A stretch of DNA of 64,000 nt from Petasospora fabianii (lineage: Eukaryota > Ascomycota > Saccharomycetes > Phaffomycetales > Wickerhamomycetaceae), in contig CP048716.1 of NCBI GenBank assembly GCA_022641835.1, positions 992,001 to 1,056,000 of the forward strand, written 5' to 3'. Below, in pieces: positions 14,065-46,531 of this stretch (position 1 is its first letter; each line of letters starts with the position of its first letter). The notes under the pieces were generated by a model. That model was given only the letters and a program-made list of their open reading frames with translations, did no database searches and was not told where the DNA came from. Position numbers and translations under genes: made by a program.

Positions 14065-15564
14065 ATGTCACTTGATCTGAACGAGGAGGATAGTGTATGT
14101 TTTGATTTATGTCTTGCGGTCCGCTGGTGTGCTGACTACTAACAGTCTACGTTATAGGCCGTTGCCCGTGTTGGTACCACCTTCAAGGAAAAGGAGAAGC
14201 CCTCCAAGATGGAGGAGCTTTATAGAGCTCGTATTGAGATGATGCAGAAGCAAGGAATGGAACATTTGACAAAAGTGCTTCAGGCTAACTCTACACGAGC
14301 CGTTGAGATTCCAAATGTTGTTGTGGAGGGAACTGAACAACTTCGTGATTCTTTCCTAGCATCTCATCTCCAACCAATTATCAATGCACGTAACGTGACA
14401 CAGCTGTTACAAGGTATTGATGAGGTTCGTGAGACACTGTCTACATCAGGTGCATTAGCCAATGTTGGTATCTCACTTGATGCTCCCACATTCTCTTCAA
14501 ACTCTACAACAACATTACAAGTTGTTCCAAAGTTAAAACTTACACCAATTTCAAGATTCATGGCAAAAACAGGTACAAATGTCGGTAATGGTGAAGGTGA
14601 TGGATACATTACACTCCAATGGCGTAATATCCGTGGTGCAGGTGAGAGTTTAATCCTTGATGCTACAACAGGTACACGAACAAGATCAAGTTATTTGGCA
14701 CAATACACAGCGCCACTATTAGAGAGTACAAGATGGAAATTGGATACTGCTGCATATCAAACAAGTAGGAGAATCGATTGGGGATCACATGAACAAGTCT
14801 TGAGAGGACTAAGGAGTAAAATTGTCAAATCTGAAAATGACCTTTCACAAGAGTTCACCATCCAGGGTGTCTTCAGAAGCGTACGTCCATATGAAGGTGC
14901 AAGTGGAAGTGTTTTGGCACATGCTGGTGATGATTTGAAAATAAGTGTTGGATATGACGTTACTAAAGATGGTAGAGATGATAAAGTGCTGCCAACAATG
15001 GGGTCTCATGTCTCCTTGTCCAATGAGGTCACCACAGCTTACTCTACTACCCAGTTTTTAAAACAGGCATTCTCGGGATCATGGGCAACCAATTGGAGAG
15101 ATGGTAGAGATATCTTAAACTTATCTGTCCGTGGTGGTTGGTTGTATGCCCTTAATGGACCATCTCATCTCATGGATAGATTCTATCTCGGTGGTCCAAA
15201 TGACGTAAGAGGCTTCTTTTATAATGGACTCGGAGCTCGTGATCACGGTGATGCTCTTGGTGGTGATGCCTTCTTTAGTGGTGGTGCCTCATTATTCACA
15301 AAGTTCCCAGGTGTCTCTAAGGAAAGTGGACTTAAGTTACACACATTCTTAAACTTTGGATCATGTGTTCCATGGGATCATTCAGACAACACTGCTACTT
15401 TAGTCAAGGAACTTCTCCAACCATCTGTTGGTTGTGGGTTTGGTATTGTTTTCAAACATCCAGTTGCTAGATTTGAACTTAACTTTGTGCTCCCAGTAGT
15501 GGCACACGAGAATGATGCTCTGAGAAAAGGGCTTCAGTACGGTGTTGGAATACAATTCATGTGA
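14065..15564 (+). CDS. SAM50: Sam50, beta-barrel assembly protein of the mitochondrial outer membrane, two exons
   Basis: Core of the SAM/TOB complex, which inserts beta-barrel proteins such as porin and Tom40. Exon 1 is 14065-14094 (MSLDLNEEDS), exon 2 is 14158-15564; the product is 478 residues, as in S. cerevisiae (484). A single POTRA-like region (about 50-125) starts at VPNV..EGTEQLRDSF. The barrel follows with the conserved DVRGFFYNGLG (the (V/I)RGF loop motif), GGDAFFSGG and the end FELNFVLPVVAHENDALRKG...GVGIQFM, which ends like a beta-signal. The exon 1 sequence is acidic, and translation from the internal ATG at 14209 would lose 27 residues. Confidence 0.93.
14095..14157 (+). other. 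SAM50: Spliceosomal intron of SAM50 (63 nt)
   Basis: 5' splice site GTATGT (14095-14100), perfect branch site TACTAAC (14137-14143) and acceptor TATAG (14153-14157). The 17 codons from 14158 to the internal ATG at 14209 are open and in phase with exon 1. If retained, the intron stops translation at the TAA inside the branch site. Confidence 0.9.
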
Positions 15565-28261: not shown

Positions 28262-30064
28262 CTACAGATATGACCCCCTAGGTATATATACACCAGTGCT
28301 TCTGAAAAGATTGTCAAATGCACTCAGACTCCCCAAATCCAACATTCCTTCAAGTCTATTGTAACTCTCAGTAGTCAAACCAAGTTTCCCCCGCAAAGAG
28401 TCTTTAATGGAAGTATCAAGCACATCGAGACAATTCTGTGCAATCTCCTTATCCTCTTCACAAACCATATATCTCACCTCTTTATGAAACGAAGTGATCA
28501 ATGTATAAGATCTAATACCTTTCATCTCAAACAACTCCGGTGCACCAACAAGCATATGTGATCGATACAAAGTCTGGAACTTTTCAAATGCATTCTTTAG
28601 TAAAAATGGTGATATCTTAGAAACACCAGGTTTATCAAACCATGCATTTTTGATCCATTCAAACTCTAATGGAACAGAAACTGTGGTATATCCCTCTGGA
28701 TACTCGAATGTCTTCTCGTATCCATTACCAATCACCCCTTCAGGGAAAGTTTCGAGCCAGACCGGGTGGTGTGGATGTGTAGTTTCATCCTTTAGCGGAC
28801 GAACAAAAGGTGCAGTACATGAAACTCTGGGTGTCTGCTCAAGTAATAACACTCGGTGATGTAGTTCTGGATAAATACTCTTCCATTTTTGTGGGGATAA
28901 ATGTGCATAGACGATATTTGAAGTGAGTTCATCGCCAGGTGTGAGTCTTTGATCTTCCCAAAGTGGTGAGAATGGTGCTTTGAGAAGCGTGTATGTATGT
29001 GTATATGGTGCAGGGAACCTTGTATTTGGGTCAGATTCAAGGACTAGTTCTTTAATCTCTTTACTCTTAACGATTCTTTCACCTTTGTACAGAATGTTAA
29101 GTCTTTCAGATACTGCAATGGATGTGATGGAAGATTTGGTATTCTTCATAAGCTCATAAAGTGATTTCTTGAGGGTTTCATCACACTCAATGACCGCTTT
29201 ATTGTTATCTAACACGAACTGGTTCCATTTTTCTGTGTTAACATAAACTTTAGAACCCAACATATGTGTCTGTGCAATAAGATTGACCTTGGGGATTCTC
29301 ATGAGTGCCCTATTGCGTAAAAGTTTGATCAATGACCAAGTTGCCTCAACATCAGACGCACAATATGACATACACATGTCAAACGAATCAATGATAACAT
29401 CTTTAGATGTACCTCCAAACAAATCTCGAACATCTTTCCTTAAAGTATCACCTTTGAATCTGAGGTAAAGAGCAGCAAGAGATCTCTGTCTAGGTACAGC
29501 TGGACGCATTGGATACTTCAAAGAGTTATTACCCTTGGTGACAAAGAAGTCATTCATGAAATTCATAAATTCAGTTACCCTTTGATCCTTTTTTGGTAAT
29601 TGGAATGCATGAGATGCCGTATACCAGGCAAGAAGGTCAATCCATGCAGTCTGTGGAGTCTCACCGTATGTGTACTCATCTAGGACTGATTCACGATCAT
29701 ATCCAACGTTAAACCCGACTATAGCCTTCTTCTCTTTCTTAGGATTCAAGAGAATCATGTCATTGGGTGTGCCATTGTCTTCAAACAAAGAGCCAGAGAC
29801 CCATCCATACCATGCCTTATTACTAGCAGCGGTGGCGAGTGTCGGTCTGTTGGAGATCTTGTAAAGCTTTTCGATATCGTACACGAGAGCGTTCTCAAGT
29901 GGATACTCCACAGGCTCTGGTGGACCATCAGATGTGTAACGGGTCCATCCTGGTTGGAAAACCCATTTTGTAGGAGCTTTGGGTAGTCTGTATGTGATGA
30001 GATGCGAGATGAGTTTATCATATGGCTTCCAAAATCGTTTCTCTGCTGCTCCAAAGAGCGTCAT
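28262..30064 (-). CDS. Polymerase-gamma-like protein with intact exonuclease and degenerate polymerase part
   Basis: 600 residues; the N-terminal half matches mitochondrial DNA polymerase Mip1: PGWTRY, then ALVYDIEKLY..PTLATAASNKAWYGW against VVFDVETLY..PTLATALSSTAWYLW. All DEDDy exonuclease residues are present: Asp63/Glu65 (ExoI), Asp123 in GFNVGYDR (ExoII), Tyr234/Asp238 in YCASDV (ExoIII). The polymerase half is much shorter than in Mip1 (1254 residues): motifs A and B are not recognisable, and motif C reads SFHKEVRYMV (527-529) where Mip1 has SIHDEIRFLV. Presumably a paralogue of Mip1 kept as a nuclease or structural protein. No clear mitochondrial presequence is visible, and there is no upstream ATG in frame. 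Confidence 0.75.
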   Translation of the reverse strand: MTLFGAAEKRFWKPYDKLISHLITYRLPKAPTKWVFQPGWTRYTSDGPPEPVEYPLENALVYDIEKLYKISNRPTLATAASNKAWYGWVSGSLFEDNGTPNDMILLNPKKEKKAIVGFNVGYDRESVLDEYTYGETPQTAWIDLLAWYTASHAFQLPKKDQRVTEFMNFMNDFFVTKGNNSLKYPMRPAVPRQRSLAALYLRFKGDTLRKDVRDLFGGTSKDVIIDSFDMCMSYCASDVEATWSLIKLLRNRALMRIPKVNLIAQTHMLGSKVYVNTEKWNQFVLDNNKAVIECDETLKKSLYELMKNTKSSITSIAVSERLNILYKGERIVKSKEIKELVLESDPNTRFPAPYTHTYTLLKAPFSPLWEDQRLTPGDELTSNIVYAHLSPQKWKSIYPELHHRVLLLEQTPRVSCTAPFVRPLKDETTHPHHPVWLETFPEGVIGNGYEKTFEYPEGYTTVSVPLEFEWIKNAWFDKPGVSKISPFLLKNAFEKFQTLYRSHMLVGAPELFEMKGIRSYTLITSFHKEVRYMVCEEDKEIAQNCLDVLDTSIKDSLRGKLGLTTESYNRLEGMLDLGSLSAFDNLFRSTGVYIPRGSYL

Positions 30065-30828
30065 AGGTGAACGTGAGATGATCCTTGGGGAGAATGATGT
30101 GATTGATAGAGGAGATATCTATCAGAGATCTCTATTGAAGGTCATTGACGCGCTTGGTTGTGGTCATATGCAGAGATGGGGTTTTTTCTTGATTAGCTTC
30201 TTCTGTATATGACGCGTCAGCTGGACCGCAAGTTCATTACAGCACCCATATGATAGCATATAATCCGTTGAAAGAGATCATATCAACACATTCGGCCGTA
30301 TCTAACTCCTAATTACCTCATTTGTACTATTGTATATCAAAAAGTTGAGTCATATACTTATGGCTTACATAATTGATATGCTTACATAACAGATACCGAT
30401 GTGCTTACATAATAGATCTAATATGCGTATCATAGATACACACAAGTCAAGTGGAAAAGACTACGATCTACACAGATCTCTTGGATCAACTAGTGGTATG
30501 ATCATGAAACGACACACTAATCAACCAGAGTAACATTATCTGTCTTAACTACAACAATGAGCCAAGTATCCCAAGACTAAGAGACCATTTGCAGTGGACA
30601 GAAAAAGGGTTGTGTTTAATGCCCCTTGACCAGAAAGTGCATAAAATGGACTTACAAAGTGCTATGGAAGTCTTCAAATCAATGTCCAAGACAGAAACCA
30701 CTTAGCAGAAATCAGTGTCACTGGTGGAACACTTAAAGACCATCCACAGACCTTTGCAATCATCCCCATTCTATGCCTCTCTTCTATATCACTTCCAAAC
30801 AAACAATCAAAAGAAACAATCTATCGCA
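30065..30828. other. Divergent intergenic region upstream of the orphan gene
   Basis: No gene. GCTTACATAA occurs three times (30363, 30380, 30403). A GACGCGTC palindrome (MCB core) lies near 30211. A frame open towards 30829 contains no ATG upstream of it. Confidence 0.65.
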
Positions 30829-31908
30829 ATGCTTAACGTTACCGAATGTATCTTCAACTCACAAGGTAATGCTACCGATGCTCTCTCTTATATCTCCTCT
30901 CAGGGCATCACTGACAGCACTGTTTTCAAGTCTGTCTCCTCGTTCGCCTTTGGAGATGAGCTTCTTTCCTTCTGGGGAATAACTCGTATGGGAACCATTT
31001 ATGCCTGTTACCAAGGATTCCTCGGTTGGGTTGAGTTAATATCTGCTTTCTATGCAGAGAAAATGGATACCACTTTGGTTAGTACCATTGGTTGTGTTTC
31101 CGGATTGGTCTATCTCAACACTGACTTGATCTCTGCTGTTGTCAATGGTGGAACCTTCCCTGTCAAGAAGATTGGATACACCAACGTTGCAGGAGTCGGA
31201 GAGGTCTTTGATACCGTTCAACTTGAGACATCTGGGATCAAGTTTGGTCGCCTTGGATCCAACAGCCCAATCTCTGTGTCAGAGTCCGTCTTAGAACCAA
31301 AGGGATTTACTTCTACAAAGACTGTGGTGGTGTTTAACGATCACAAACGTCGTGTTCCTAACTTGTACGGTATTGAAGCAACACACAATGATGGTTATGA
31401 GATGTACTGTTTGGGAACTGACACGAGACCTGAAGACATTGTCGAGGCTATCCTGAGCACTGATCCAGGTGAAAAGATGACTCTCAAGAATGGCCGTACC
31501 ATCTTATGTTCTTCTGTTTCTCCAGAATCTACTGTCGATGGTGTGATTATTCCAGATAATAAAGAAAAGGGAAAGGGAGAACATGACCCTTGGTCACACA
31601 AGAGAGCACTCATCAAGAAGGTCACTTCTCAGAGTGTCGACGTTGACAGTGATGTTGAGGAGAATACATTCCTTAGAAGCCTTATCAGTAACGCTGCCCT
31701 CAGCCTTGAATCTGACACTGAGATTGATGAGGAAGAAGAGATTATCAACTCGCAAGGTCTGATCTCTAAAGTTAGAAAGCCATGGGGATCATCTCGTGTC
31801 TTTGCTGATGAGGAAGGTGCTTTCAAGACCACATTCCAGACCAACTGGTTCAACAGTTGGGGGTCATCTGTGTATGACAATGTCACTATCGGCAGAGCTT
31901 TGCTTTGA
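30829..31908 (+). CDS. Orphan protein of unknown function
   Basis: 359 residues from the ATG at 30829 (MLNVTECIFNSQGNATDAL); the frame is open further upstream but without an ATG. I recognise no family. A hydrophobic, possibly membrane-associated stretch covers about residues 55-105 (ISAFYAEKMDTTLVSTIGC then VSGLVYLNTDLISAVV). The middle is soluble-looking with GIEATHNDGYEMYCLG. An acidic, Ser-rich part (DSDVEEN, EIDEEEEII) precedes an aromatic C-terminal segment KPWGSSRVF...NWFNSWGSSVYDN in which WGSS occurs twice. No signal peptide is evident. The frame is long and continuous, so I regard it as a real gene. Confidence 0.65.
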   Translation: MLNVTECIFNSQGNATDALSYISSQGITDSTVFKSVSSFAFGDELLSFWGITRMGTIYACYQGFLGWVELISAFYAEKMDTTLVSTIGCVSGLVYLNTDLISAVVNGGTFPVKKIGYTNVAGVGEVFDTVQLETSGIKFGRLGSNSPISVSESVLEPKGFTSTKTVVVFNDHKRRVPNLYGIEATHNDGYEMYCLGTDTRPEDIVEAILSTDPGEKMTLKNGRTILCSSVSPESTVDGVIIPDNKEKGKGEHDPWSHKRALIKKVTSQSVDVDSDVEENTFLRSLISNAALSLESDTEIDEEEEIINSQGLISKVRKPWGSSRVFADEEGAFKTTFQTNWFNSWGSSVYDNVTIGRALL

Positions 31909-45328: not shown

Positions 45329-46531
45329 TCAAAAGCCTCTGATGAAGAACTCACCAATCTTTGAACCTCTGAAACGACTAAAAGCTCTCTTATCGATGCC
45401 ATGGGTCTTAACAAAATGACCCGAGATGGCTTTCAAATCTTTATACCGAACAAAAAGAACTCTTGTCTCTCTTGACACCACAAAGGAGCTCAATATGACT
45501 CTGGCCAAATCTGCCGGCTTTGCTGTATTTGGAAGAAATGGCCCTAAAAATCGAGACACAAGTGTATGAGCGACGGTGGGACGCTCAAACTCTATCAAAT
45601 TGTTACCTCCTGACACTCGTTTCGGTCCAGTGATTGTTCCACATTCAATAATGATAACAGTTTCAACTTTGTTACGCAATACTGCGTCATTCACAACGTC
45701 CAAAGTTTGATGGTGCTCATGGTAGTCATTGGCGTGGGCCATCGTAGGAAGAATGTGTCGATTGAGACCATATCGGATGACTCCTGATTTGTACGTACTC
45801 ACAATTGCAACAATTAATGACCAATTTCCAATAACTAAGAGTTCAGAAAGCATGTTATTTGAGGTTGTAACCGCATTAGGTGTGTTTACACACCAGATAA
45901 GACTGTATTTGGCCATGGTGGAGATACCCATGGTGACTTTGATGATGTCAGCCCAATGTTGATCAAGTGCCTTGACGTGTTTGATGTTCTCAGATAACCT
46001 TGGGGAGCTTACTATACTGTAATGACGTGCCATGAGGATAATGAGGGTGTTTGAACTTGAACCAATTTCCGCCAAACCAGGAATGTATTGGCCTAAGGAT
46101 TCACCTACTCTCCCAGTCGATCCACACACAAATACAATCTCTTCAATGTTACCCTTATGCTTGGCTAAGTGCTCATAAAGACTTTCGGCGGTTGGATCTT
46201 CTGGAAGAGCCTGTAAACTCTCTGGAGCAGCTATGCTTCCACCTTCAGTGGAACTACTTGAAATCAACTGAATGGTTTTGAGGGAATAGTTGTTGACAAG
46301 AGTAGCATGCTCATTTGGGGAGAGAGCAAAGGACATCACCGTGGCGGAACTATCTGTGTTTGGGACCTCTATGGCGGCTATCACTTTGTCGACATTGGCC
46401 TGCTCGGCGGCAGTGAGCTCAAAGGTGTTGGATGAAGCAAAGGGTTGTTCTGTGGGAGTTGAGACGAGAAGAGCGTCTGAAGAGTTCATAACTGCAATAG
46501 TGGTAGCTATGGTGGTGGTGTGTTTGTACAT
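45329..46531 (-). CDS. Putative NAD(P)-binding Rossmann-like protein, function unknown
   Basis: 400 residues from ATG 46531, or 386 from ATG 46489 (MNSSDALLVS). The second half begins with a Rossmann-type strand and turn, EEIVFVCGSTGRVGESLGQYI, whose GSTGRVGESLG (137-147) fits the GxxGxxG of atypical short-chain dehydrogenases. Later segments (LIILMARHYSIVSSP, NWSLIVAIVSTYKSG, VETVIIIECGTITGP, KPADLARVILSSFV) fit the alternating strand/helix order of an NmrA/RfbD-like fold. No catalytic YxxxK is evident. The N-terminal ~120 residues look disordered. I do not recognise an S. cerevisiae orthologue. Confidence 0.6.
   Translation of the reverse strand: MYKHTTTIATTIAVMNSSDALLVSTPTEQPFASSNTFELTAAEQANVDKVIAAIEVPNTDSSATVMSFALSPNEHATLVNNYSLKTIQLISSSSTEGGSIAAPESLQALPEDPTAESLYEHLAKHKGNIEEIVFVCGSTGRVGESLGQYIPGLAEIGSSSNTLIILMARHYSIVSSPRLSENIKHVKALDQHWADIIKVTMGISTMAKYSLIWCVNTPNAVTTSNNMLSELLVIGNWSLIVAIVSTYKSGVIRYGLNRHILPTMAHANDYHEHHQTLDVVNDAVLRNKVETVIIIECGTITGPKRVSGGNNLIEFERPTVAHTLVSRFLGPFLPNTAKPADLARVILSSFVVSRETRVLFVRYKDLKAISGHFVKTHGIDKRAFSRFRGSKIGEFFIRGF

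Follow-up and report, generated by a model that had tools for sequence, protein, structure and literature searches.

A 600-residue protein encoded in Petasospora fabianii is, judged by its sequence, a polymerase-dead derivative of the mitochondrial DNA polymerase Pol gamma and not itself a Pol gamma. With a probability of about one half, we consider it to be a nuclear-encoded paralogue of the yeast Pol gamma Mip1 that has lost synthesis and would act as a polymerase-free 3′–5′ exonuclease. The gene lies in a 64,000-nucleotide stretch of contig CP048716.1, which was analysed as a whole and is called the window below.

A single open frame in a gene-dense segment

The gene is one uninterrupted reading frame with an ATG start, 600 codons and no internal stop, and an open stretch precedes it in the same frame:

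28262..30064, − strand: gene for the Pol gamma-derived 600-residue protein (single open frame; Pfam DNApol_Exo; closest solved relative, yeast Mip1)
30065..30118, − strand: open stretch ahead of the ATG in the same frame (18 codons with no acidic residue and no ATG, behind a TAG)

The extension may possibly mark a non-AUG start or the end of an exon; five phage tblastn alignments begin within it, at 30103. The idea that a targeting peptide is encoded in an exon further upstream was rejected after an intron scan with a few fixed motifs: upstream of this gene, a TACTAAC with a matching 5′ site occurs just once, at 31084, in the antisense of the neighbouring gene, and the alternative, which pairs GTAAGT at 30655 with a GCTGAC at 30221, would come in on the upstream side of the in-frame TAG.

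The window comes from a budding-yeast chromosome and is densely packed with genes (G+C 41.6%); their Pfam families point to SMC3, CRM1, ADE2, TRP2, SAM50, a YME1-like protease and others. When the seven CTG codons of the window's CRM1 gene were compared with Exportin-1 (4gmx), five aligned with Leu, one with Met, and one fell outside the displayed alignment. Since these codons align mostly with Leu, the standard genetic code applies, and decoding of CUG as Ser was ruled out.

Several other features of the window were recorded. A 51-base candidate intron with the consensus GTATGT...TACTAAC...AG lies at 14095-14145 (+), roughly 60 bases ahead of the SAM50-like frame. The divergently transcribed neighbour of the gene, at 30715-31908 (+) and about 360-397 residues long, and a 400-residue frame at 45329-46531 (−) have no Pfam match at E ≤ 0.001. 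Three closely spaced copies of the repeat TATGTAAGC are found at 30363-30411 (−), in the intergenic DNA upstream of the gene for the 600-residue protein. A tRNA scan of the window in its bacterial setting returned none.

A second Pol gamma piece elsewhere in the window was not evident among 49 tblastn matches at E < 1. Seventeen matches were flagged as lying outside the gene; the 15 listed comprise five that overlap the gene and ten elsewhere (E 0.28-0.80), and the bit scores of the remaining two are no higher than those of the listed 15.

The exonuclease domain and its catalytic residues

The N-terminal part of the protein contains the following features, all on the − strand:

29324..30037, − strand: exonuclease domain, residues 10-247 (PF18136, E = 1.1e-51; AlphaFold2 model of residues 1-312)
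29855..29893, − strand: ExoI, residues 58-70 (Asp63 and Glu65 kept, Lys66 in place of the Thr after Glu; alignment of Mip1 and 36 phage sequences)
29672..29725, − strand: ExoII, residues 114-131 (Asp123 kept, Phe118 in place of the family-conserved His before Asn119; alignment)
29585..29638, − strand: degenerate helix after ExoII together with the orienter, residues 143-160 (of 9 conserved positions, 1 is kept, and the alignment shows a gap; orienter position from PMC3314619)
29327..29449, − strand: ExoIII block, residues 206-246 (Tyr234 and Asp238 kept; alignment)

DNApol_Exo (PF18136) is the sole Pfam family found in the protein at E up to 10. The best match in a sequence search of the PDB was 9c51 (E = 7.9e-29), which carries the title yeast MIP1, followed by mammalian POLG at 8.1e-27 and weaker, and all 14 distinct sequences matched at E ≤ 0.001 are mitochondrial Pol gammas. 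From the alignment with Mip1, it is clear that the DEDDy set is complete, as an earlier note on this DNA had claimed: Asp63, Glu65, Asp123, Tyr234 and Asp238 align with Asp171, Glu173, Asp230, Tyr343 and Asp347 of Mip1, respectively. Position 347 is what we take to be the ExoIII Asp of Mip1 once 27 is added to the chain number to obtain the literature numbering. With the same conversion, the orienter Cys falls at 261, in agreement with PMC3314619.

The sequence around the catalytic residues, which had likewise been described as conserved, deserves that description in the core and not across the whole domain. Of 36 positions that are invariant in a reference set of 14 Pol gammas (Mip1, human POLG and 12 from phages), 22 are kept and 14 are lost, seven of the losses falling in the orienter and in the helix that follows ExoII. 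Because these lost positions include the His before Asn119, and because the near-invariant Thr after Glu65 is Lys, the exonuclease activity could be weak or absent.

The orienter (Mip1 249-265 in literature numbering) is lost as well; in Mip1, it is needed mainly for polymerisation. This element is described as highly conserved within eukaryotes (PMC4419789). The human Pol gamma orienter variant S305R was reported to have a k_exo of 0.11 versus 0.34 per s and a tenfold lower DNA affinity (PMC4391263), so the loss of the orienter may slow excision too.

In addition to the sequence searches, we have used an AlphaFold2 model of residues 1-312, built from 16 sequences (mean pLDDT 64.9, pTM 0.64), in a fold search against the PDB. 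All 35 chains found at E ≤ 0.001 were Pol gamma, with Mip1 at E = 7.0e-14. Both its residues and its predicted fold place the protein in the DEDDy 3′–5′ exonuclease superfamily.

A degenerate polymerase half

The C-terminal part retains three blocks in the order seen in Mip1:

28700..29029, − strand: remnant of the thumb end and of the palm ahead of motif A, spanning residues 346-455 (placed by collinear alignment; of 31 conserved positions up to residue 458, 12 are kept)
28631..28699, − strand: probable degenerate motif A, residues 456-478 (collinear position; pairwise blastp E = 0.74)
28340..28600, − strand: degenerate motif C block, residues 489-575 (blastp E = 0.004; hhalign score above 30 of 30 shuffles; alignment near gap-free)

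Motifs A and B had been called unrecognisable in the earlier note. This is correct for motif B, which is absent together with the fingers, and goes too far for motif A, since a probable degenerate version can be placed by its collinear position alone, the pairwise blastp piece not being significant. In this alignment, GYTTVSVPLEFEWI of the present protein stands opposite GYCFVGADVDSEELWI of Mip1, with P465 in place of Mip1 D693, E467 in place of D695, and no counterpart of E698. Only 10 residues separate the motif A and motif C blocks, against 141 in Mip1, a figure that depends on the block borders we set, and the missing stretch includes yeast Gly807, a part of the partitioning loop.

The motif C block reached an hhalign score of 33.3 against 23.5 for the best shuffle (n = 30), at an HHsuite probability of just 14.9%; because its score exceeds those of all 30 shuffles, the block is not explained by chance. 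The replacement of HDE by HKE in this motif, already remarked upon from the letters, is borne out and maps to residues 527-529 (28478-28486, − strand). Most of the spacer, the yeast C-terminal extension and the N-terminal domain have no counterpart in the 600-residue protein, and 54 further conserved positions (25 in the spacer and 29 in the fingers, as counted by chain numbering) fall in regions without a counterpart.

A full-length AlphaFold2 model (24 sequences) had a mean pLDDT of 45.9. The comparison of a predicted structure with Pol gamma, which the earlier note had suggested, is therefore clear for residues 1-312, where all matches are Pol gamma, and not for the palm, since the C-terminal half of the full-length model is too poor to judge its fold. 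A phmmer search with the C-terminal half also matched YktB (2a8e, E = 0.0075) over residues 431-508, which overlap the motif A remnant; although this value is better than the pairwise 0.74 of motif A, the match was taken as chance because the region is collinear with Pol gamma.

These losses also bear on whether the gene could be an assembly or annotation artefact, or the sole and highly derived MIP1 of this yeast. Either is highly improbable: the deletions preserve the frame, the window shows no evident second fragment of a Pol gamma, and a protein without the fingers and the metal aspartates would not be expected to replicate mtDNA.

Probable descent from a Mip1-like polymerase

In a tree of the exonuclease domain, the protein and Mip1 are split from human POLG and the phages with an ultrafast bootstrap of 83, Mip1 and human POLG being the only two eukaryotic references. 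The branch of the present protein is long, at 2.0 substitutions per site against 0.9 for Mip1. Over the exonuclease part, its identity to S. cerevisiae Mip1 is 33.3% (198 positions), compared with 44.0% (193 positions) for human POLG. It had been proposed earlier that a paralogue without polymerase activity has kept an open frame and its nuclease site. At the level of sequence, the lost chemistry, the site and the frame agree with this proposal, and the paralogy itself we infer: since the protein is less Mip1-like than human POLG is, which is unexpected for an ordinary yeast Mip1, the gene would be a fast-evolving Mip1 paralogue.

The phage relatives amount to 11 records with 21.8-29.4% identity, each over 45-49% of the query. 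A search of viral contigs, bacterial genome contigs and plasmids gave no relatives (2 and 7 pattern stretches, none confirmed). The cyanophage Pol gamma homologues (Mic1, A-HIS1, S-CBWM1 and S-TIM5) have a homologous exonuclease domain, but the three that were aligned are complete polymerases of 894-993 residues. The annotation of the Microcystis phage Mic1 (L001:2761-5737) divides Pol gamma into two genes with about 400 bases between them; either the polymerase is split or its gene is interrupted.

Signs of selection on the two halves

Family-conserved positions have been lost unequally. The exonuclease core keeps 23 of 30, versus 18 of 60 in the aligned orienter, thumb and palm, as counted against Mip1 and 36 phage proteins, many of them alike and at least one phage being present twice. 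The corresponding Fisher value (p = 3.9e-5) is descriptive, because the reference set is redundant and the borders were drawn after viewing the alignment.

We have also simulated neutral drift of codons 251-600, with substitutions only and with the present sequence as the starting point. At 60, 45 and 30% identity, the mean numbers of stops were 7.5, 9.8 and 12.6, respectively, and none of the 100 runs at each level was free of stops. Since simulated drift never leaves the frame open, this points to selection on the whole protein. The codon score of the true frame is higher than those of both other frames in all three parts of the protein (0.325, 0.284 and 0.127 bits per codon); the values for the linker (0.284) and the pseudo-palm (0.127) lie below those of all 15 compared window genes (0.32-0.84), which would fit relaxed selection. 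Taken together, the contrast in kept positions, the drift simulation and the codon scores suggest that the full-length protein is probably made and under selection, with the nuclease part held most strictly.

The low scores of the linker and pseudo-palm, along with the long branch, the lost conserved positions and the large deletions, could also be read as the marks of a dying duplicate, that is, a truncated copy of MIP1 that is turning into a pseudogene. This is quite improbable, given that not one stop occurs in 600 codons and that the losses are unequal and spare the nuclease core.

An open frame that includes the pseudo-palm is likewise what one would see if the protein were a structural or regulatory partner of a true Mip1. 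As a pseudo-polymerase, it would then bind Mip1 or mtDNA, and it would keep the nuclease site by descent or for DNA binding only. Precedents exist among inactivated B-family polymerases (an archaeal group, a Pol epsilon module and chordopoxvirus F12), which have lost polymerase catalysis, were kept as derivatives and have a proposed structural role (PMC2527604, PMC2669801, PMC4304020), although they belong to another polymerase family. We regard such a partner role as unlikely, since the nuclease core is far better kept than the palm, the reverse of what a purely structural palm partner would show, and since S. cerevisiae Mip1 has been reported to be monomeric (PMC4362329).

Proposed function and location

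If the protein is a polymerase-free exonuclease, two-metal catalysis at the kept DEDDy site would remove nucleotides from the 3′ ends of DNA, and possibly of RNA. Resynthesis would not follow, as there is no polymerase site to which the 3′ end could be returned. No longer tied to the parts that deliver the primer to the polymerase site, the enzyme would degrade in place of proofreading, and the pseudo-palm and thumb remnant may serve as a platform for holding DNA or for dimerising. A stand-alone proofreading role, which the earlier note had offered as one option, is weakened by the loss of the orienter and of the stretch with Gly807, because it is these elements that move DNA from one active site to the other. 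One observation speaks against the preferred reading: were the exonuclease all that mattered, there would have been no need for the C-terminal half to remain open.

The likeliest place and job would be mitochondria and the clearance of linear or damaged mtDNA. Degradation of linear mtDNA fragments was found to require the POLG exonuclease (PMC6021392). In S. cerevisiae, the copying and the destroying of mtDNA are reported to reside in one protein, Mip1; there, the polymerase-deficient Mip1-CΔ263 supplied in trans restores damage-induced mtDNA loss in mip1-exo- cells, and its exonuclease mutant fails to do so (PMC11894172). Full removal of the C-terminal extension of S. cerevisiae Mip1 is likewise described as abolishing the polymerase and not the exonuclease, and in Mip1Δ279 the polymerase is absent and exonuclease activity is retained (PMC3303844).

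The first 40 residues of the ATG-started protein have a net charge of +5 with two acidic residues, and the best 18-residue hydrophobic moment is 0.55; the amphipathicity is moderate and the sequence suggests no clear targeting peptide. With the N-terminal domain also missing, the protein could be an active exonuclease that works on RNA or in a place other than mitochondria, such as the nucleus or cytosol. This is distinctly unlikely: the PDB matches by sequence (14) and by the fold of residues 1-312 (35 chains) are all mitochondrial Pol gammas, the N-terminal charge and moderate amphipathicity point the other way, and so does the 18-codon extension without acidic residues upstream of the ATG.

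Relation to known proteins and implications

With the family A enzymes Mip1 and POLG, the Pol gamma catalytic subunits, the present protein shares ExoI-III, the DEDDy residues and collinear remnants of the thumb end, motif A and motif C. It differs from them in size (600 residues versus 1240 in the yeast chain), in the absence of the fingers and motif B, the orienter, most of the spacer, the N-terminal domain and the yeast C-terminal extension, and in the replacement of two aspartates, one in motif C and the other, judged by its position, in motif A. It resembles the laboratory variants Mip1-CΔ263 and Mip1Δ279 of S. cerevisiae, which are reported to be polymerase-negative and exonuclease-positive (PMC11894172, PMC3303844). 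However, these are engineered C-terminal deletions that retain the fingers and polymerase motifs, whereas the present gene is a natural one and has lost much more. The fungal Dis3/RNase II pseudonucleases are yeast paralogues that have likewise been kept after losing a catalytic activity, although in an unrelated family in which, according to PMC8097288, it is the nuclease that was lost, in contrast to the nuclease site kept here. In our searches of the open-licence literature, we found no described Pol gamma paralogue with synthesis lost and the nuclease site kept, in line with the earlier remark that no yeast protein of this kind was known.

The protein bears on how mitochondria choose between the copying and the destruction of mtDNA. 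If our reading is true, it would be the natural counterpart of the engineered Mip1-CΔ263, with the two functions separated, and it would offer a clean tool for testing whether mtDNA is cleared through Pol gamma excision alone. We suggest, tentatively, that some budding yeasts may split the jobs of Pol gamma between paralogues, one copying mtDNA and the other serving as a dedicated mtDNA-clearing exonuclease. A natural protein with the destroying half alone would show that copying and destroying can be separated by evolution.
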